NCBI GenBank assembly: GCA_020631355.1
Contig: JAHDHL010000007.1
Span: 1-64,000 of the forward strand
DNA from: Saprospiraceae bacterium
Lineage (GTDB): Bacteria > Bacteroidota > Bacteroidia > Chitinophagales > Saprospiraceae
Length of the DNA: 64,000 nucleotides
Direction of reading: 5' to 3'
This document shows positions 2,582 to 11,206 of the stretch, one piece after another. The translations under genes and the position numbers were made by a program. Position 1 is the stretch's first letter. Every line of letters begins with the position of its first letter. Under the pieces are notes generated by a model. The model searched no databases and was not told the DNA's origin. It was given only the letters and a program-made list of their open reading frames with translations.

Positions 2582-3352
2582 TTAATCCTTTTTCCTGAGA
2601 TTCTTAATGAAATCCTTGGGTGTTACACCCTCGAATTCCTTGAATACCTTGTAAAAAGTGGACTTGTTCCTAAAACCGCATAATTGGGCAATTCCGTATG
2701 TGGTCAGATGGGAAAATTCCGGATTAATTATTTTCTTCTTGGCCGTCTCTATTCTGAACTTATTGATGAAATAAAGGATATTCTTTCCTGTCCTCTTGTT
2801 GACGACCTGCGACAGGTATCTGGTATTGGTCCCAAGCATATCGGCTAGATTCTTTAGCTTGAGATCGGGCTGAAGGTAAATTTGTTCGTTTTCGAACAAG
2901 GCATTCAACTTAACGAATATATCCAATGCCTTGACATTACTTAGGCTACTGGAGTGGTACCTCGGTTCAAGTTGTAATAGGGTAATGTCCGAGTCATCCG
3001 CAATCTTATCACCATCTATTTCGAAAGCGATGTAATTGGTATGTACTCCCTTTTCATCAAAAATAGGGTAAATGACCAATTTGCAGATATACTCCTCACC
3101 ATCCTTACGATAATTCGTAATTTCTGTCTTAATCGGAATGAGGTTATTCAGGGCATCTTTGATATCCTGAACGACCTGTGGTTCCGTATTCGCGCCTTGT
3201 AGGATACTTGGTTTGCGACCTTTCACATCACCTAGGGAATACCCGGTGATTGCAGTGAAATCCTCATTAACCCATTGGATATTCCTATCCTTATCGGTTA
3301 CGATGACCGCAATGTTAATCTTATCCTTAAGGTTTCCTTTGTTAGCAACCAT
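2582..3352 (-). CDS. PAS domain - AraC-type transcriptional regulator
   Basis: A 256-residue soluble one-component regulator. Residues about 12-115 form a PAS domain (INIAVIVTDKDRNIQWVNED, FTAITGYSLGDVKGR, then the PAC-like segment ending IAFEIDG). Residues about 160-256 form an AraC/XylS double helix-turn-helix, with LADMLGTNTRYLSQVVNK as the first HTH and YGIAQLCGFRNKSTFYKVFK as the second, ending in the family hallmark GVTPKDFIKNLR. The PAS domain presumably senses a small ligand, cofactor or redox state. An 11-bp inverted repeat with half-site GTATGAAAACA lies 46-91 bp upstream of the start; the same half-site recurs before the TonB receptor operon near 40.6 kb. Autoregulation is an inference. 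Confidence 0.85.
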   Translation of the reverse strand: MVANKGNLKDKINIAVIVTDKDRNIQWVNEDFTAITGYSLGDVKGRKPSILQGANTEPQVVQDIKDALNNLIPIKTEITNYRKDGEEYICKLVIYPIFDEKGVHTNYIAFEIDGDKIADDSDITLLQLEPRYHSSSLSNVKALDIFVKLNALFENEQIYLQPDLKLKNLADMLGTNTRYLSQVVNKRTGKNILYFINKFRIETAKKKIINPEFSHLTTYGIAQLCGFRNKSTFYKVFKEFEGVTPKDFIKNLRKKD

Positions 3353-3397
3353 TGTTTTTAGTCTAGGATTCCAAATTACAAAATCGAAAAGCTAAAA

Positions 3398-3443
3398 GTA
3401 TGAAAACATAAATCTTATTCTGCAAATCCTCGTGTTTTCATAC
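3398..3443. promoter_or_regulatory. inverted repeat GTATGAAAACA, possible operator
   Basis: GTATGAAAACA at 3398-3408 and its exact reverse complement TGTTTTCATAC at 3433-3443, separated by 24 nt. It lies 46-91 bp upstream of the PAS-AraC start codon. The first nine bases of the half-site are repeated in inverted form at 40611-40639. Confidence 0.5.
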
Positions 3444-3482
3444 CTATCTATTGATTGTCAATACATAAATGGCATTATCCGC

Positions 3483-3518
3483 AAAAAAATGGTGACCAAC
3501 TTTTCCAGTTGGTCACCA
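3483..3518 (-). terminator. intrinsic terminator of the coiled-coil gene
   Basis: A perfect 12-bp stem (TGGTGACCAACT at 3490-3501 with AGTTGGTCACCA at 3507-3518), 5-nt loop TTTCC, preceded on the plus strand by seven A (3483-3489), i.e. a U7 tract for leftward transcription. It sits 30 bp beyond the stop codon of the coiled-coil gene. Confidence 0.9.
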
Positions 3519-3547
3519 CATGTATCAAATGTAAAATCCGAGGAGAA

Positions 3548-6500
3548 TTAGTTGTTCCCTTCTTTCTCCTTTTCGGCTTTCAATCTTTCAATTTCGGCTT
3601 TCAATTCCTCTAATTCTTTCTGCTTCTCTGCTACGGATTCCGACAAACCATCCAATCGGGATTTTTCCTCGGCAATCTTTGCATCCGTATCTTCCTTGAT
3701 TTTTTTGATTTCATCGGCAGAAGTCTGCTTGGTTGCGTATACCTCATCAGAAGCATCCTTCTTTGCCTGGTTGATTTCCTCCTGAGAAATTTTCCTTGCT
3801 TCTTCTGCTTCCTTATTATATTGGTTCTTCTTTTCCAATGCATCTTCTCGAGCCTCGGCAATTTCCTGAGCTGTCTTTTCCTGTTCAGCCCTAATTTCTT
3901 CTACTGATTTCGCTTTCGCCTCGGCAATTTCCTGGGCAAAGCCCTCTTTCTTCTCATTCGCTTCGACCTTGGCCAACTGAACTTCCTCAGCTGCCTTGGA
4001 TTTGGTTTCTGCTACCTCCCTAGCAGCATTCTCCTTGGTTTTGGCGATTTCCTCAGCAGAACTTTGCTTGGCCTCCAATTCAGCCAGCTTGGCTGCCTCG
4101 ACAGCCTTAGCTGCAGATTCCTTGGCTAATTTCACCTGTTCAGCAGCAGCAGACTTGGTCTCATTGATTTCCAACATGGCCCTTTCTTTCGAAGCTGCCA
4201 CTTCTTCTGCCAATTTCTGCTTTTCATTCGCAGCTGCTTCCTTAGCAGACCTTACTTGCTCTGCCTCATCCTGTCTGATCTGGGAAATGGTTTCAGCAGC
4301 AGTCTTCTTGGCCTCAGCCACACTTTCAGCAGATGCCTGCTTGGCCTTAGCCGCTTCTTCCTGGGATGCAGCTACTTCCCTGGCAGCTGTCTCCCTGGCC
4401 ATTGCCACTTCCTCAGCAGCTCTTTCCTTGGCGGTCTTCACTTCCTCTGCAGACATTTGTTTGGTTTCAGCTTCCTTTTCCTTGATTTCCTTCAACTTGT
4501 TGGCCATTTCAGATTGGATATCCGTAATCTTGGTTTGGGCTGCACCCTGTGCAGATTGTACCTCAGTGGCATATTTCTTACGAGCTTCCTCGGCATTGCT
4601 CTTGGCATCCGTAACACTCTTTGCTGCTTCCTCATTTGCTTTCTGTACCTCAGTTGCTGCCTTTTCTCGTGCTTCCGCTACCTCCTTAGCTGAGTTTTCC
4701 TTTACCTCGGCCTCTTTCTTACGAGCTTCCTCGGCCGCAGCAGCGACTTCTTCCTGTATCTTCTTGATTTCAGCAGCAGCCCTATCCTTAGCAGCTTTCA
4801 CTTCCTCTGCTATCTTCACCTTTTCCTCCTCAGCCTTGGCTTTTGCTTCCTGTACTTTCGTAGCTTCTTCCTGATTGATTTCCTGAATGGCTGATGCTGC
4901 ATTCTGCTTGGCCTCAGCTACCTGCTGAGCCAATTCTGCCTTCTGTGCATCTCCCTCTTTCTTGGTATCAGCGATATCAGCAGCAACATCCTGCCTAGTG
5001 GAATCCACCTGCATCTTAGCCAATTGCTTTTCTTCAACCACTTGCTTCTTAGCCGCATTGATTTCCTCTGCAGCCCTTTGCTTGGAATCAGCTACTTCCT
5101 TGGCCGTCGTTTCCTTTTGCAAAGCTGCCTTTTCCTTGATATCGGCAATTTCTGCAGCTGTTGTTTCCTTGGCCAATGCTTTTTCCTCAGCACCCTTACG
5201 TTTTGCCTCAGCTACCTCAAATGCAATTTTTTCCTTTTCCAATACAGCATTCTCCTTCAATCTGGCAATTTCCTCTGCTGTCTCCTCCCTGACCTGAAGA
5301 ATCTGTTCAGTAGCAGTCTTCTTGCTATTGACTACATCTTCCGTAGTCTTATTCTTTTCTTCCTTGGCTTTTTGTCGGGCTTCTGCAATCATAGTTGCAG
5401 TTTCTTCCCGAATCTTCTGTAACTCGAGTGTCGAGTTCTCCCTAGCGGAAGCAACTTCGTCGGCATAATCCAATTTTGCTTTCTCTAGGCTTTCCTTGAC
5501 CACTTTCAATTCATCAGCAGCCTTAGCCCTTGCCTCAGCCACTTCTTCTGCTGATTTCAGTTTGGCTTGCTGTATTTCTTCACCAGCTTTCTGTCGAGCC
5601 TCTTGTACAGTGAGATTGATTTTCTCTATCTCGCCTCCGGCTTTTTCCTTGGCAGTTGCTATACCTTTGGCTTCTTCCTCCATGGCCTGTTTGATGGCTG
5701 CATCAGCTTTCTTCCGGGCCTCCAATACCTCTTGGGCTATATCATTTTTCTTGAGTGTCGCATTCTCTACGGATTTGGCAATTTCCTCTTGGAGTTGTTT
5801 TTTCATTGCCTCGCCACGTTCCCTTTCCTTGACGATTTCCTCCTTTAGCCTTGCTTTCAAATCCAATAACTCCTGTTGCAAATCCCTTACTTCTTGCTCA
5901 TCCTGAGGATTGACCTTACCGCCGCCACCTGATGATGAACCACCTGATTTAGCTCCGCCTTCACTCTTATTGGACTTTCCTGCGGAGCTATTGGTAATAC
6001 CACTATTCAATGAATTATCCCTCTTGGCATTAGAGGAAACCTTATTGGGATCCAGCGTCTTGTTGTAGCAACTGAACATACTCTGAATCTGGGATTGTCT
6101 ATTGGATGGAAATGTCAACATGGGCCCTTTCCCTGTCAATTGATCCAAAATGATAATTCTATTGATTTTGGAACTGGCCAACCACTTCACGAATCCTATA
6201 TCAACAGTAAGACTGTTGGTATAAGTCGGTACACCGCTCACATCCTTGACCAAATCAGCCATACTATCAAACTTATATACTTTCTTACGCTTCGAAACAT
6301 CCTCGAATACAACCCTATCATCCTGATTCAGCTGTGCTCCCCCCTTAGAATAGAATACCATATACAATCCTGTATTTGCATTCTCCAAGGTAAAATCATA
6401 ATTGGAGCCTGACCTTACGGCCAACTGTTCCCGTTCTGATTTAAGGATTTGGATACTTCCGGGCGTCTTATTCTCTGCTATAAGATTAGAACACTGGGCA

Positions 6501-6571
6501 TCGAGGTGAATTTGAAAAGAAAGTAGGGTGAGTATGGTTACAAACAAACTGGTTTGAAATTGTTTCTCCAT
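3548..6571 (-). CDS. giant exported coiled-coil protein with 40-residue superrepeats
   Basis: About 1007 residues from the ATG at 6571 (MEKQFQTSLFVT...), chosen because it opens a Sec signal peptide; an upstream in-frame start would add 27 residues with no clear role. After the signal peptide (ending near LDAQ) comes a unique domain to about residue 180, then a Ser/Gly-rich linker with GGSSSGGGGK, then an Ala/Glu/Lys-rich helix to the C-terminus. Residues about 291-970 divide into repeats of 11, 11 and 18 residues (e.g. EEVKTAKERAA, EEVAMARETAA, REVAASQEEAAKAKQASA): 14 units of exactly 40, two of 51, and one 18-residue remnant. The last 37 residues return to heptads (KELEELKAEIERLKAE). There is no lipobox, membrane anchor or T9SS tail, so a periplasmic location is most likely. 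The function is unknown; resemblance to LEA-type 11-mers is compositional only. It has its own terminator and no operon partner. Confidence 0.85.
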   Translation of the reverse strand: MEKQFQTSLFVTILTLLSFQIHLDAQCSNLIAENKTPGSIQILKSEREQLAVRSGSNYDFTLENANTGLYMVFYSKGGAQLNQDDRVVFEDVSKRKKVYKFDSMADLVKDVSGVPTYTNSLTVDIGFVKWLASSKINRIIILDQLTGKGPMLTFPSNRQSQIQSMFSCYNKTLDPNKVSSNAKRDNSLNSGITNSSAGKSNKSEGGAKSGGSSSGGGGKVNPQDEQEVRDLQQELLDLKARLKEEIVKERERGEAMKKQLQEEIAKSVENATLKKNDIAQEVLEARKKADAAIKQAMEEEAKGIATAKEKAGGEIEKINLTVQEARQKAGEEIQQAKLKSAEEVAEARAKAADELKVVKESLEKAKLDYADEVASARENSTLELQKIREETATMIAEARQKAKEEKNKTTEDVVNSKKTATEQILQVREETAEEIARLKENAVLEKEKIAFEVAEAKRKGAEEKALAKETTAAEIADIKEKAALQKETTAKEVADSKQRAAEEINAAKKQVVEEKQLAKMQVDSTRQDVAADIADTKKEGDAQKAELAQQVAEAKQNAASAIQEINQEEATKVQEAKAKAEEEKVKIAEEVKAAKDRAAAEIKKIQEEVAAAAEEARKKEAEVKENSAKEVAEAREKAATEVQKANEEAAKSVTDAKSNAEEARKKYATEVQSAQGAAQTKITDIQSEMANKLKEIKEKEAETKQMSAEEVKTAKERAAEEVAMARETAAREVAASQEEAAKAKQASAESVAEAKKTAAETISQIRQDEAEQVRSAKEAAANEKQKLAEEVAASKERAMLEINETKSAAAEQVKLAKESAAKAVEAAKLAELEAKQSSAEEIAKTKENAAREVAETKSKAAEEVQLAKVEANEKKEGFAQEIAEAKAKSVEEIRAEQEKTAQEIAEAREDALEKKNQYNKEAEEARKISQEEINQAKKDASDEVYATKQTSADEIKKIKEDTDAKIAEEKSRLDGLSESVAEKQKELEELKAEIERLKAEKEKEGNN
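3662..5701 (-). repeat. hendecad/heptad repeat array, about 120-bp period, degenerate
   Basis: Coding region for about 680 residues of the coiled-coil protein. Each 40-residue unit has [ED]-E-[VI]-x-x-A-[KR]-x-x-A-[AS] at its first two 11-mers and an 18-residue closing segment. The units are strongly diverged from each other at residue level, so this is an old, selected repeat and not a recent tandem duplication. Confidence 0.8.
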
Positions 6572-6635
6572 GATACATGGTTTATTTGTGACGTAAAAAA
6601 GCGGTACTATGCAATATAGTAAAAAAACGCTATCA

Positions 6636-6653
6636 ATTGAATAATTATTCAAT
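6636..6653. promoter_or_regulatory. 18-bp perfect palindrome upstream of the coiled-coil gene
   Basis: ATTGAATAATTATTCAAT reads the same on both strands. It lies 65-82 bp upstream of the coiled-coil start and about 67 bp past the pyrB stop. There is no T-tract and the stem is AT-only, which fits a dimeric repressor site better than a terminator. No regulator is assigned. Confidence 0.35.
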
Positions 6654-6719
6654 ATGTAAACGTTTCACAAAAGATAATTGTGATTATCAATAAAAAAACT
6701 AATTAAATTCCAATCGAGC

Positions 6720-7655
6720 TTAACTTCTCCTAGAGGCAAGCAAATAAAGAATGGCCATACGGGTTGCGACGCCATTTTCCACTTGTTCGAGGATGATGGA
6801 TTGTTCGGAATCCGCAGCATCACTGGTGAGTTCCACTCCCCTATTGATTGGCCCTGGATGCATGACAACCACCTCAGAATCAAGGCTATCCAATAATGCC
6901 TTACTGATTCCGAATGTTTGGTGATACTCCCTTAATGAGGGGAAATATTTGATGTCCTGTCTTTCTAGCTGTATCCTTAGTACATTGGCAACATCGCACC
7001 ATTCGAGTGTTTTTCTGACATCATAGGAGACCTCAACACCTAATTTAGAAATATGTTTAGGAATTAAGGTAGGTGGTCCACACAAACGGACATTCGCGCC
7101 CAATTTTTTCAAGCAATAAATGTTACTGACAGCCACCCTTGAATGTAGGATATCACCAAAAATTGCGATGTTCTTTCCTCCCAGGTCATCATTCAGTGCC
7201 TGTCTCATGGAAAAGGCATCCAAGAGTGCCTGGGTCGGATGTTCATGCGTACCATCCCCTGCATTGATGATATTAGCTGGAATCTTCCTTGAGAGGAATA
7301 ATGGTGCTCCCGGAGCGGGATGCCTCATGACTACCATGTCCACTTTCATGGATAGGATATTATTGACGGTATCCAGTAGGGTTTCTCCCTTTTTGACCGA
7401 TGATGATGAGGAGGAAAAATTGACCACATCTGCCGATAGTCGCTTCTCTGCCAATTCGAATGAAATACGAGTACGTGTAGAATTTTCGAAGAACAGGTTA
7501 GCTACGGTGATATCCCTAAGGGAGGGTACTTTCTTGATGGGTCTATTGATGACTTCCTTGAATTCCAAAGCCGTATCAAAGATCAGTTGGATATCATCGA
7601 CATTCAGGTATTTGATTCCTAAAACATGTTTGGTGCTCAGTTGGCGTTGTGACAC
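6720..7655 (-). CDS. pyrB: aspartate carbamoyltransferase catalytic subunit
   Basis: Condenses carbamoyl phosphate with aspartate in the committed step of pyrimidine synthesis. At 311 residues it is typical of the catalytic chain. Carbamoyl-phosphate loop FFENSTRTRISFE (residues about 55-67), the mobile 80s loop SSSSSVKKGE, GDGTHEHPTQALLD, and HPGPINRGVE are all intact. Translation appears to start at GTG, since no in-frame ATG occurs in the next 50 residues. It lies 57 bp downstream of pyrR on the same strand, so pyrR-pyrB form an operon. No regulatory chain pyrI is seen. Confidence 0.95.
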   Translation of the reverse strand: MSQRQLSTKHVLGIKYLNVDDIQLIFDTALEFKEVINRPIKKVPSLRDITVANLFFENSTRTRISFELAEKRLSADVVNFSSSSSSVKKGETLLDTVNNILSMKVDMVVMRHPAPGAPLFLSRKIPANIINAGDGTHEHPTQALLDAFSMRQALNDDLGGKNIAIFGDILHSRVAVSNIYCLKKLGANVRLCGPPTLIPKHISKLGVEVSYDVRKTLEWCDVANVLRIQLERQDIKYFPSLREYHQTFGISKALLDSLDSEVVVMHPGPINRGVELTSDAADSEQSIILEQVENGVATRMAILYLLASRRS

Positions 7656-7712
7656 GAATTTTCCGTTTTAATCAAAAAATCAACAACAAATCATACTCCT
7701 AGAACCTAGGAA

Positions 7713-8258
7713 TTATCTTTTGGGATATAGAATAATCTTATCCTCTCCTTGAACATCTTTCCATTCCACGCTCACATATGCTTCGTCCAAAGCATCCACT
7801 TTCATGCCGATATAATCGGATGTGATGGGTAAATGCCTATTGTAATGACGATCCACCATGGTTACCAATTCGATTTTCCTTGCTCTGCCATAATGTTCCA
7901 GGGCAGTGAGTGCGGCCCTGACGGTTCTTCCGGAGTACAGTACATCATCCGCAAGGATGACATTCTTATCCTCCACTAGGAAATCCATTTTCGTTTGGCT
8001 AGGGCTCAATGGCTTCAGTCGGGTTCTGAAATCATCCCTGTAAAAGGTTACATCCAGAATACCCATTTCTATACTATCCAGTCCTGTTAGTTCTAGTAAT
8101 TTGGCATGTAATCTTTGTGCGAGGAAAGTCCCTTTCGGTTGGATACCTATCAGGCAAGCATTACTGAAATCGTCATGGTTTTCGATCAGCTGATGAGACA
8201 GTCTGTCGATGGTGAGTTGGAATTGTTTATCCTTTAGTATGGTTCTCCCCTTTTCCAT
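7713..8258 (-). CDS. pyrR: bifunctional pyr operon regulator / uracil phosphoribosyltransferase
   Basis: A 181-residue PyrR-type type-I phosphoribosyltransferase. The PRPP motif VILADDVLYSGRTVRAAL is at about residues 91-108, and the N-terminal IGIQPKGTFLA and C-terminal YVSVEWKD segments are typical. In Firmicutes PyrR binds pyr mRNA; whether it does so here cannot be seen, and no pyr attenuator is apparent before pyrB. The ATG at 8258 is chosen over an in-frame TTG at 8267 because that TTG lies inside a perfect TACCTTTG promoter box (8265-8272). Only six bases separate the box from the ATG, which predicts a leaderless or nearly leaderless message. pyrB follows. Confidence 0.9.
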   Translation of the reverse strand: MEKGRTILKDKQFQLTIDRLSHQLIENHDDFSNACLIGIQPKGTFLAQRLHAKLLELTGLDSIEMGILDVTFYRDDFRTRLKPLSPSQTKMDFLVEDKNVILADDVLYSGRTVRAALTALEHYGRARKIELVTMVDRHYNRHLPITSDYIGMKVDALDEAYVSVEWKDVQGEDKIILYPKR

Positions 8259-8264
8259 GTGATG

Positions 8265-8272
8265 CAAAGGTA
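8265..8272 (-). promoter_or_regulatory. -7 promoter box of pyrR-pyrB
   Basis: TACCTTTG on the minus strand is a perfect match to the Bacteroidota TAnnTTTG box. It ends 6 nt before the pyrR ATG, so transcription should start at or next to the start codon. Confidence 0.6.
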
Positions 8273-8306
8273 GGGTTTTCGTTATTTATTCCATTCATTC
8301 CTAGAC

Positions 8307-8336
8307 AAAAAAAGAGGCTGCAAATTGCAGCCTCTT
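8307..8336 (-). terminator. intrinsic terminator of argS
   Basis: Stem AAGAGGCTGC / GCAGCCTCTT (10 bp, 5-nt loop AATTT on the minus strand) followed leftward by a run of T (plus-strand A at 8307-8313). It is placed 7 bp beyond the argS stop and upstream of the pyrR promoter. Confidence 0.9.
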
Positions 8337-8342
8337 ACTTTA

Positions 8343-10190
8343 TTACATTCTTTCAGGAATTTCAATTCCCAATAATCCCATTCCAGATGTCAGGACATTG
8401 AGGGTGCTGGTTGAGAGTGCTTTTCTGAAAGCCTTGGCTTCCTGGTTCTCAGCCCTTATGACGGATAAGCCTGAATTATAGAATTTATGATATCCCTTAG
8501 CTAGGGCATAACAGTAATTTGCCAGATGGGACGGATCATAATCCTGGGCTGCTTCCTTGATAATGCTTGGGAATGCATGCAACATCTGAAGCAATTCCTT
8601 TTCAGCCTCATGGATGGATTCATAGCCATTCAAATCATCAAAATCCACCTCATCCAATTTTCTTAGGATGGACTTAATCCTCACACCGGCATTCTGGATA
8701 TAAGGGCCCGTCTGTCCCTGCATATCCACGGATTCGCTCGGGTCAAAAATCATGGATTTCTTAGGATTCACCTTAATAATGAAGTACTTCAGTGCGGCAA
8801 GGCCGATCTGACCGAAGATTTTTTGTTTTTCTTCCTCAGATACTCCATCCAAAGTACCAATGGCTTCACCATTCTTAGCCGCTTCCTGTATGACTTCTTT
8901 CATCAGATCATCGGCATCAACAACAGTACCTTCCCTTGACTTCATTCTTCCTGAGGGCAGATTGACCATACCATAATTCAGGTGATAGCAACCATCCGCA
9001 AAGGATTCTCCCAGTCTTTTGAGAATCTCGAATAACACCTTGAAGTGGTGGTTCTGCTCATCCGCAACGACATAAATCATCTTTTCCATTCCAAAATCCT
9101 GGTATCTCAACTTGGCAGTACCGATATCCTGGGTCATGTAAACGGACGTCCCATCGCTCCTCAACACCAATTTATGATCTAGCTTGGCATCCTCAAGGTC
9201 AATCCAGACTGAATTATCATCCTTCTTATAGAAAATACCATTCTCGATTCCTTCCTCTATGATATCCTTACCCAATAGATAGGTATTGGATTCATAATAT
9301 AACTTATCAAAATGAACACCCAGATTCTCATAGGTTACATCAAACCCCTTGTAAACCCAACCATTCATCATCCTCCATAAATCCCTGACTTCCTTATCCC
9401 CGGCTTCCCATTTCAGAAGCATGTCCTTGGCTTCCGCACCTAATTCACTATACTCATTGAAATAATCATTCTTATATTTCTTGAAGAATGCCTCAACATT
9501 TTCCGGTTTCACTGCCTTGGACTCCAACAACTGTTGGGCAGCTGAGGACTTCTGCCATTCAGCATATTCTCCCCTTAACTGAGCATCAAATACCACATAC
9601 CAATGACCCACAAAGTGGTCACTTTTCACCCCTTCGGATTCGGGTGTCTTACCCTCTCCGAATTTTTTCCAGGCCAACATGGACTTACAAATAGCAATTC
9701 CCCTATCATTTATGATTTGTACCTTAACCACATCATGACCAGCCGCCTCAAGAATCCTTGAAGTGGACCAACCCAATAGGATATTCCTAACATGACCGAG
9801 GTGAAGCGGCTTATTCGTATTTGGAGAGGAAAATTCCACCATCGCTTTCTCTCCTGTCTTTGGTGATTCGCCATAGGAGGTATCCTCCTTGATTCTTGAA
9901 AGAAAATGCTTCCAATAATCATCACTGACCGTCAAATTAAGGAAACCCTTGATGACGTTATATGCCGTGAAGTCTTTGGTATTTTCTATCAGGTAAGCTC
10001 CTAGTTCTTCTGCAATTTGATCTGGTTTCTTGCGTGCATCCCTAGCGAATGGAAATGTAACAACTGTATAATCTCCCTCGAATTCCTTCTTGGTAGTATT
10101 AACAATCAATTTCTCCTTCGGCACATCAATATCGTATAATGATTTGAGCGCAGCAGGTACCTTTTCGTCTATGATTTGTAAAATATCCAT
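8343..10190 (-). CDS. argS: arginyl-tRNA synthetase
   Basis: Charges tRNA-Arg. A 615-residue class I synthetase with the N-terminal additional domain (residues 1-110), the HIGH-type motif in NKPLHLGHVRN (about 130), the KMSKS-region equivalent GRMKSREGTVVD (about 415-425, lacking the second Lys as is common in ArgRS), and the C-terminal anticodon-binding DALR domain ending GLLGIEIPERM. Length and gene boundaries are typical. It is divergent from the UbiA-like gene; a TTTG-N18-TAACTTTG promoter reads into it from 10265 to 10236. It ends in a clear intrinsic terminator. Confidence 0.97.
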   Translation of the reverse strand: MDILQIIDEKVPAALKSLYDIDVPKEKLIVNTTKKEFEGDYTVVTFPFARDARKKPDQIAEELGAYLIENTKDFTAYNVIKGFLNLTVSDDYWKHFLSRIKEDTSYGESPKTGEKAMVEFSSPNTNKPLHLGHVRNILLGWSTSRILEAAGHDVVKVQIINDRGIAICKSMLAWKKFGEGKTPESEGVKSDHFVGHWYVVFDAQLRGEYAEWQKSSAAQQLLESKAVKPENVEAFFKKYKNDYFNEYSELGAEAKDMLLKWEAGDKEVRDLWRMMNGWVYKGFDVTYENLGVHFDKLYYESNTYLLGKDIIEEGIENGIFYKKDDNSVWIDLEDAKLDHKLVLRSDGTSVYMTQDIGTAKLRYQDFGMEKMIYVVADEQNHHFKVLFEILKRLGESFADGCYHLNYGMVNLPSGRMKSREGTVVDADDLMKEVIQEAAKNGEAIGTLDGVSEEEKQKIFGQIGLAALKYFIIKVNPKKSMIFDPSESVDMQGQTGPYIQNAGVRIKSILRKLDEVDFDDLNGYESIHEAEKELLQMLHAFPSIIKEAAQDYDPSHLANYCYALAKGYHKFYNSGLSVIRAENQEAKAFRKALSTSTLNVLTSGMGLLGIEIPERM

Positions 10191-10235
10191 CAGATGCTTT
10201 ATGTTTTATGAAGAACTTGGTTCTTTATAGTGGCG

Positions 10236-10265
10236 CAAAGTTATTACATTTGGTGTATAACCAAA
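10236..10265 (-). promoter_or_regulatory. argS promoter
   Basis: Minus strand: TTTG (10262-10265), an 18-nt spacer, then TAACTTTG (10236-10243). Both elements match the Bacteroidota -33/-7 consensus. The predicted 5' leader is about 40 nt. Confidence 0.65.
10245..10252 (+). promoter_or_regulatory. -7 box toward the UbiA-like gene
   Basis: TACATTTG on the plus strand, one base away from the argS -7 box on the other strand. A -33 TTG at 10217-10219 is 25 nt upstream, longer than ideal, so this promoter would be weaker than that of argS. Confidence 0.4.
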
Positions 10266-10288
10266 TAATTTGTCCAAGGATTCCTCGG

Positions 10289-11206
10289 ATGTCCGATTTT
10301 TTCAGAAAAGTAGCCACAAATCTTCCCATAGATGCTTTCTTTAAAGGGTCTATCTTTTATCTATTGGGACAAACCCTAGGACTCCAGCATGGTGTAGGGT
10401 ATCACACCCACGTTGGACTGATCGGTTGGATGATTGTTATCGGGATGCTCTTTGCCTTTCATTTTACAGGCTTCATTATTTACCAAAGACAATACAGTAT
10501 ACTTTGTTCCTTATTCCCGAATCAGAATAAAAGTGGGGTTCCCTCCCTCTCCTTCAGTCGATGGGGACTTGGAGTTTCAATATTTCTAGTATTGGGAATG
10601 CTTGTGTTATTGTTTCAAACATCCAATGATCTTACACTATTTGGATACATTATGGCAGCCATTATACTTGGTATCCTATATTTCCCACCTGTTCATCTTA
10701 ATTTCAAAGGCGGAAGTGAAATCATCGAAGCATTGGGCTTGGCTGTACTGATTCCCTTATTCTCTGCCCATATACAATCAGGGGAATGGATATGGGAACG
10801 GAGTGGTTCTGTCATCACTCCTTTGTTCATGCTTACCTTGGCAGCACTGATAGCAGCTAATCTACCCATGAAAAGGCAACATCAATACATTGGGAAATCC
10901 ACCTTGGTAACGGTTTCTGGTATCATGGGCGGACAAAGGACATCCTTTATATTACAAATCCTATCCGCATTCTCATTTCTGATATTCATCGTGATGCAAA
11001 CGAGTCCCATATCCTGGACCTATGGTACCCTGGCCATTATTCCTATATTGGTTTCAGGTTGGAAAAGTTACCAAAGGATACAATTGGAAAACGTGAGGAA
11101 CCTTACTTTCCTCAACCTTTATCAGAATAGCATACGAAGTACCCTTTGGATTGTGATACTTATATCCTGTCTAGGATTGACCATGAATTATTGGACAGGG
11201 CCCTAG
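10289..11206 (+). CDS. UbiA-like polytopic membrane protein lacking Asp-rich motifs
   Basis: About 305 residues with 8-9 hydrophobic segments. The overall pattern resembles MenA/UbiA prenyltransferases: YFPPVHLNFKGGSEIIEALG matches the mid-protein PxxLxYxGxGE region of MenA, and NLPMKRQHQYIGKSTLV aligns with the second motif that normally reads NDxxDxxxDxxxGKRTL. The catalytic aspartates are absent at that position, and no NDxxDxxxD motif is visible at the first site. It may therefore be an inactive or repurposed family member. The ATG at 10289 is preferred over one at 10208, which would place 27 extra residues over the divergent promoter. It is convergent with hemE, 23 bp away. Confidence 0.55.
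   Translation: MSDFFRKVATNLPIDAFFKGSIFYLLGQTLGLQHGVGYHTHVGLIGWMIVIGMLFAFHFTGFIIYQRQYSILCSLFPNQNKSGVPSLSFSRWGLGVSIFLVLGMLVLLFQTSNDLTLFGYIMAAIILGILYFPPVHLNFKGGSEIIEALGLAVLIPLFSAHIQSGEWIWERSGSVITPLFMLTLAALIAANLPMKRQHQYIGKSTLVTVSGIMGGQRTSFILQILSAFSFLIFIVMQTSPISWTYGTLAIIPILVSGWKSYQRIQLENVRNLTFLNLYQNSIRSTLWIVILISCLGLTMNYWTGP

Follow-up and report, generated by a model that had tools for sequence, protein, structure and literature searches.

A family of exported Saprospiraceae proteins with a 40-residue (11+11+18) helical superperiod

A long protein with an unusual register

Coiled coils are customarily described through heptads or hendecads. In a 64,000-nucleotide stretch of a Saprospiraceae genome (the whole stretch analysed, hereafter the window), one gene encodes a long protein that an initial annotation, made from the sequence alone, had read as an exported coiled coil with a 40-residue superperiod. 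What holds such a register over hundreds of residues, and what kind of structure would it build?

Gene and domain layout

The gene spans positions 3548-6571 of the window on the minus strand. Translation from the ATG at 6571 gives a 1007-residue product, here called the rod protein. Its regions and nearest features are as follows:

7713..8267, minus strand: pyrR-like gene, upstream of pyrB
6720..7655, minus strand: pyrB-like gene, directly upstream of the rod gene
6497..6571, minus strand: Sec-type leader, residues 1-25 (translation; judged by eye)
6053..6496, minus strand: head domain, mature residues 1-148 (alignments; AlphaFold)
5900..6052, minus strand: variable Ser/Gly-rich linker, residues 174-224 (low conservation and low pLDDT)
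5735..5899, minus strand: lead-in coil, residues 225-279 (predicted helix starting at mature residue 200)
3683..5734, minus strand: 40-residue (11+11+18) superperiod coil, residues 280-963 (Fourier, autocorrelation, segmentation, helical map)
5462..5614, minus strand: first 51-residue unit (11+11+11+18), residues 320-370 (segmentation)
4928..5101, minus strand: two 29-residue units (11+18, 11+18), residues 491-548 (segmentation, orthologue indels)
3935..4087, minus strand: second 51-residue unit, residues 829-879 (segmentation)
3551..3682, minus strand: C-terminal heptad-like zipper and polar tail, residues 964-1007 (segmentation, orthologue C-termini)
3489..3519, minus strand: intrinsic-terminator-like hairpin, 13-pair stem followed by a T run (about 28 bases past the stop codon)

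The proposed export agrees with the orthologues, in which a Sec-type leader is recognizable by eye: a hydrophobic leader, mostly with an A-Q or similar ending, precedes a conserved Cys. In the window protein, we saw by eye no lipobox before the Cys that follows the leader and no second hydrophobic stretch beyond it. The linker is poorly conserved (0.14 at mature residues 161-180 and 0.23 at 181-200), and pLDDT falls below 50 at mature 157-202 in the whole-chain AlphaFold model. Profile-Viterbi segmentation divides the lead-in coil into segments of 18, 11, 11 and 14, counted from residue 226, and residues 964-1000 (the segmentation ended at 1000) into heptad-like segments of 14, 14 and 9. The C-terminus of most orthologues is a Leu-containing helix followed by a polar N/K/G tail.

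The superperiod is 40 residues

The hydropathy spectrum of residues 291-970 (window 5701-3662, minus strand) peaks at 0.2750 per residue with a power of 49.3, which is the 11/40 peak predicted by the initial annotation. The maximum at any frequency in 2000 shuffles was 12.9. Identity at lag 40 is 0.297, compared with a shuffle mean of 0.132 (sd 0.013, maximum 0.181), and the excess recurs at lags 80, 120, 160 and 200. Glu and net charge likewise peak at 0.275. For Ala alone the maximum is at 0.175 (7/40) and for Lys+Arg it is at 0.45 (18/40), again multiples of 1/40. The local period stays at 3.62-3.66 across eleven 120-residue windows. The 0.275 peak is absent, within the scanned range of 0.24-0.32, from the E. 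coli controls TolA, MukB (two arms) and AtpF.

Two simpler registers were considered and rejected. A canonical heptad coiled coil is at odds with a power of 0.0 at 2/7 versus 49.3 at 11/40, and heptad-like segments occur only at the C-terminal end. A uniform hendecad coiled coil is at odds with a power of 4.4 at 3/11 and with 16 steps of 18 residues in residues 280-963. Power at 5/18 is 0.3. Neither outcome that the initial annotation named as refuting (no excess at lag 40, or a uniform heptad or hendecad register) is seen. Each 11+11+18 unit comprises three hendecads and a heptad.

For segmentation, we trained a cyclic 40-column profile on 24 relatives together with the window protein. It resolves residues 280-963 into units of 40, 51, three of 40, 29, 29, seven of 40, 51, 40 and four 11s (12 of 40, two of 51, two of 29 and four of 11 residues). 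The unit structure originally described stands; its count (14 units of 40, two of 51 and an 18-residue remnant) does not. The two 29-residue units may be regrouped as 40+18. Tandem Repeats Finder returns just two short rows in window 3000-7000, so any repeats at the DNA level have decayed.

Axis-parallel stripes along the helix

The unit consensus is EEVAEAREKAA EEIAKIKEEAA EEIAEAREKAAEEKEKIA. Core-type positions are 3, 6, 10, 14, 17, 21, 25, 28, 32, 36 and 39, with 3-4-4 spacing three times and 3-4 spacing once. Position 36, although core-type, is Lys/Arg in a fraction of 0.75, and many other core-type positions are merely Ala. Because Lys36 aligns with Arg7, Lys18 and Arg29, the heptad matches the last seven residues of a hendecad, and it may be a hendecad that lacks its first four.

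On a helical map with 11 turns per 40 residues, acidic, Ala, apolar and basic stripes run parallel to the axis. The acidic stripe lies at -104 to -77 degrees, an Ala/Ile stripe at -68 to -14 degrees, a V/I/I stripe at -5 to +13 degrees, a Lys/Arg stripe at +22 to +49 degrees (0.75, 0.86, 0.55 and 0.78) and a second Ala stripe at +58 to +112 degrees. The V/I/I stripe consists of positions 3, 14 and 25, which are large apolar residues in fractions of 0.92, 0.91 and 0.97 and all fall within 13 degrees of the apolar centre.

The register corresponds to 40/11 = 3.636 residues per turn, for which the computed supercoil pitch is about 2,070 residues (about 308 nm), versus about 98 residues for heptads. 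The coil would accordingly be close to straight in three dimensions. This straightness hinges on the intrinsic residues-per-turn value of the helix, because a value of 3.60 would cut the pitch to 360 residues (53 nm).

A conserved family in Saprospiraceae

A head-domain profile matches 129 of the 248 genomes of the window's family (65 of 111 genera). Because just 102 of its 197 good genomes carry the head, the head-domain family is not essential to an envelope of this kind. At the order level, 28 of 248 genomes match, and one of them (G057) is the sole match outside the window's family; the single second genome examined from G057's family (n=1) has no match. At the phylum level, 4 of 345 genomes match, all in the window's family. 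The named loci (at least 56) are mostly Saprospiraceae MAGs and include two named strains, Phaeodactylibacter xiamenensis KD52 and P. luteus KCTC 42180. The initial annotation's reference to Bacteroidota is correct, and most named relatives belong to Saprospiraceae. The loci analysed represent part of the 129 genomes, and the remaining genomes are known from open-frame length alone.

Length statistics for named loci use closed ORFs of more than 600 mature residues (48 of the 56 listed loci). The extra-11 survey and the 49-sequence indel set described below use closed ORFs above 800 residues, and a larger set adds closed ORFs above 700 residues from loci L029-L054 and L174-L213. These sets exclude L034 (a CHAT fusion), the closed ORF of 650 residues at L039 and all ORFs that are open-ended. 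Removal of 11 identical sequences reduced 107 to 96, and L032 is also left out of the 95-sequence alignment.

Mature length is 981 ± 28 residues in the 48 named closed ORFs and 974 ± 32 in the 96 distinct ORFs. The hydropathy peak falls at 0.2745-0.2755 in 94 of 96 full-length coils; the exceptions are L123, at 0.175 (7/40), and L032, at 0.0555 (1/18). The best identity lag is 40 in 80 coils, 80 in eight and another value in the remaining eight. L032 comes from G057, outside the window's family. It is an 877-residue ORF with a coil at residues ~206-830 built on an 18-residue repeat (lags 18, 72, 36 and 54; amphipathic peak 0.2775, about 5/18).

Among 68,866 coil residues, we counted 3 Pro and 486 Gly. 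Mean identity between orthologues (0.39) exceeds lag-40 identity within proteins (0.27), which indicates that the units are old and diverged before the family did. The most conserved 20-residue blocks of the coil, at mature 341-360 (0.54) and 421-440 (0.59), are perhaps docking sites. A 265-residue coil query against ten genomes identified no coil paralogue outside the rod ORF: six genomes match, all within that ORF. The query has no match in head-less G010, G014 and G026, nor in G057 with its differing coil.

Most length changes keep the helical phase

The layout of the coil is largely fixed. All 48 named orthologues have an extra 11 within mature 299-336 and, close to where the coil ends, a step of 22 residues. 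A second extra 11 (mature 723-840) is present in 43 of them and absent from L122, L127, L128, L129 and L130. The profile used to score these steps was trained on a different set that shares some genomes.

In the 49-sequence set, all 34 coil indels (mature 212-925 of the window protein) have a length of 11, 18, 22, 29, 40 or 58 residues. The same lengths account for 89 of 106 coil indels in the 95-sequence set; the 17 that do not fit occur in L050, L053, L183-L185, L194, L195, L197, L203 and L208. The main hot spot for length change in the family is residues 491-548 (window 4928-5101).

A single parsimony reconstruction on a midpoint-rooted FastTree tree yields 28 length changes, of which 24 have a phase error of at most 27 degrees from whole turns at 3.636 residues per turn. 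By chance, 7 of 40 lengths would fall within that limit. The four out-of-phase changes are -94, -8, -4 and +15. No net change is exactly 40, and a 40 contributes to the -98 of L135 and the -94 of L197.

An uncharacterized head domain

The head is predicted by AlphaFold, from 38 sequences, as a beta-sandwich with a C-terminal helix (mean pLDDT 89.2). Cysteines at mature positions 2 and 143 are invariant in 24 of 24 and 38 of 38 aligned heads and probably form a disulfide. Foldseek returned no match at E<=0.001. The best VIA-align match is IalB of Bartonella (3dtd; Z 7.5, rmsd 4.7 over 135 residues) at 7% identity, a Z below 8 that, according to the tool, may mean a common arrangement; its other matches are of mixed folds, further beta-sandwiches among them. 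No IalB-type sequence match was found among the 24 heads scanned. Searched against PDB sequences, the head profile gave nothing convincing (seven chains, best E 0.075). We regard the weak Pfam matches of individual heads (best E 0.0013, DUF7189, in 2 of 24 members) as chance.

The head also occurs outside rod proteins. Two copies are present in a TPR-CHAT protein of G029 (L034:6855-10784, minus strand; CHAT Pfam E 3.4e-57), and further long ORFs of G105, G156, G225 and G265 (L214-L218) contain one to four copies. By eye these long ORFs resemble exported TPR-CHAT (caspase-like) proteins; Pfam confirms CHAT for L034, the one scanned. A 185-residue ORF at L219 (G120) has one head domain, and the match contains one stop codon.

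Structure prediction and database searches

The whole-chain AlphaFold model is weak (pLDDT 63.5, pTM 0.27). It places helices at mature 200-381, 395-678 and 684-981, with breaks at 382-394 and 679-683; pLDDT is below 50 also at 525-555 and 783-818. Charges covary beyond the profile at i+3 and i+4 only (opposite 1.28-1.37, like 0.43-0.64). Covariation at i+5, expected for interchain g-e' pairs, is absent (0.99, 1.01). The coil thus shows no interchain signal of the g-e' type, which fits a helix stabilized within a single chain.

No Pfam family matches the mature window protein at E<=10, and the search thus yields no barrel, autotransporter, SLH or anchor domain. Since there is also no NCBIfam match at E<=0.01, no T9SS sorting domain is recognized; we take NCBIfam to include models of T9SS C-terminal sorting domains. 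AlphaFold predicts a helix at the C terminus. The coil has no match among PDB sequences at E<=0.001, PADLOC reports nothing for the rod protein, and an Rfam gathering scan of window 3000-10400 is empty. Among the best-ranked literature matches (titles and abstract openings), we found no paper on the family. These searches bear out the earlier remark that no described family was recognized. The rod protein family is real, conserved and unannotated, and its register is unusual.

Genomic neighborhood

The two genes upstream (window 6720..7655 and 7713..8267) are presumably pyrB-like and pyrR-like. Among 50 loci with more than 1.5 kb of upstream sequence, 34 have a member of the pyrB-like cluster within 600 bases upstream and 32 have a pyrR-like gene upstream. 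The pyrR-pyrB order is kept in many loci, an odd partner for an envelope protein. The rod gene may be co-expressed with these pyrimidine genes, an association that gives no function.

Downstream in the window, on the same strand, lies a gene for a PAS/AraC-type regulator. The terminator-like hairpin comes from a consensus scan that found 14 such sites in 3200-8500 versus 5.7 expected. In 18 of 48 loci, the window not among them, a TlpA-like thioredoxin gene (named by eye) is directly 3' of the rod gene. TlpA-like genes at L089, L101, L104 and L121 contain a CGHCKK motif, and this thioredoxin might serve the two cysteines of the head.

A proposed envelope rod and its alternatives

We propose, with a probability of roughly 0.5, that the protein is an exported structural rod of the envelope, oligomeric, nearly unsupercoiled and fixed in length at about 115 nm. 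The proposal builds on the observed periodicity, the family and its largely fixed layout, the stripes and the predicted head fold; a parallel oligomer, its straightness in three dimensions, its location and its role are inferred. Once exported by Sec and freed of its leader, the chain would begin with the beta-sandwich head, continue through a flexible linker and then run as a largely unbroken alpha helix for about 780 residues. At 3.636 residues per turn, the 11+11+18 register would align the V/I and Ala stripes with the axis, so that two or more chains could lie alongside one another and hardly supercoil. Together they would form a stiff rod whose length is fixed (computed with a rise of 1.485 A per residue) and which the C-terminal heptad zipper closes. 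The periplasm of Gram-negative bacteria is usually narrower than about 115 nm, so the rod would lie along the envelope, or protrude from the surface if carried across the outer membrane. Most likely it would serve as a scaffold or spacer of set length, with the head domain holding one end. Several results count against this proposal: the silence of charge covariation at i+5, Lys/Arg at core-type position 36 and Ala at many other core-type positions, the weak whole-chain model, the lack of any anchor, barrel, SLH or sorting domain in the searches, the 17 of 106 indels and 4 of 28 length changes that do not fit, and the presence of the head in just 102 of 197 good genomes.

The chain might instead act as a monomer, a single alpha helix of the ER/K type that forms an extended, semi-rigid arm or spacer with no coiled coil. 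The pairing of opposite charges at i+3/i+4, the avoidance of like charges there, the silence at i+5 and the composition (A 0.215, E 0.174, K 0.12, R 0.062) are all consistent with this. We nevertheless consider it unlikely, given three positions per unit that are 91-97% large apolar on one face (within 13 degrees) and flanked by Ala/Ile, as well as the zipper-like C terminus. A surface fibre or adhesin carried over the outer membrane would suit the predicted length of about 115 nm and the exported head domain, but is doubtful when NCBIfam gives no match at E<=0.01 (T9SS sorting) and Pfam no barrel or autotransporter at E<=10. A hydration or desiccation protein of the LEA group 3 type, with 11-mers disordered in solution, hardly comes into consideration: the Ala/Glu/Lys-rich hendecads resemble LEA 11-mers, yet the family conserves its length, its irregularities and the residues specific to individual units, as a disordered chain would not, and in the genome scan and Pfam scans the rod gene is unmatched by LEA_4 (PF02987) at E<=10. 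LEA_4 has four sub-cut-off matches elsewhere in the window's genome.

Two further alternatives concern the 40-residue period itself. Tandem duplication or unequal exchange could leave the superperiod and the indel lengths as by-products with no structural constraint, since similar segments would likewise yield unit-length indels. This is improbable, because the DNA repeats have decayed and orthologues are more alike than units within a protein. Slippage should also favour lag 40, the most similar, yet no net change is exactly 40, and the distant relative L032 has an 18/5 coil instead. Alternatively, the 40-residue period (about 5.9 nm) could match sites on a periodic partner, as in a tropomyosin-like ruler. 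The charge, Ala and Lys/Arg patterns do peak at multiples of 1/40. Against such a ruler, which we regard as very unlikely, steps of 51, 29 and 11 residues interrupt the axial period, every one of the 48 named orthologues carries the extra-11 and 22-residue steps, and the length changes that are tolerated mostly preserve angular phase rather than 40-residue spacing. We know of no partner polymer.

We put at about even odds the more specific view that this is a natural, roughly 100 nm unsupercoiled coiled coil made by adding one heptad per three hendecads. Evolution would then have kept the azimuth of the stripes and largely ignored their axial spacing, and the distant relative would be nearly as straight with plain 18-residue repeats (18/5).

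Relation to known long helices

The b2 and E/G peripheral stalks of rotary ATPases share helices with 11-residue repeats with the rod. In PMC6131620, these stalks are described as stiff, the A-ATPase subunits as rich in Ala, Leu, Glu and Arg, and the coils as right-handed and short (140 A for E/G). The rod differs in adding a heptad per three hendecads, which gives the period of 40/11.

SlpA of Deinococcus and Omp-alpha of Thermotoga are, like the rod, exported long coiled coils with a proposed spacer role, according to PMC9388160 and PMC5082667. The lengths given there are 28 nm and 45-50 nm, which the rod coil would exceed two- to fourfold. As described there, SlpA and Omp-alpha carry an SLH domain and an outer membrane barrel or membrane anchor, whereas none was found in the rod. 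The rod also recalls length-conserved spacer coiled coils, for which PMC5082667 describes coil length kept across species and a molecular ruler idea. Unlike those proteins as presented there, the rod has a periodicity other than the heptad, and its indels are mostly sums of 11 and 18.

Because many genera keep a 40/11 register for hundreds of residues, the family is a natural test of the use of straight, unsupercoiled rods. Its mostly phase-keeping indels amount to a natural experiment on what long helices must conserve. The analysis also defines an unannotated, putative envelope protein with an uncharacterized head in a large family of environmental bacteria.
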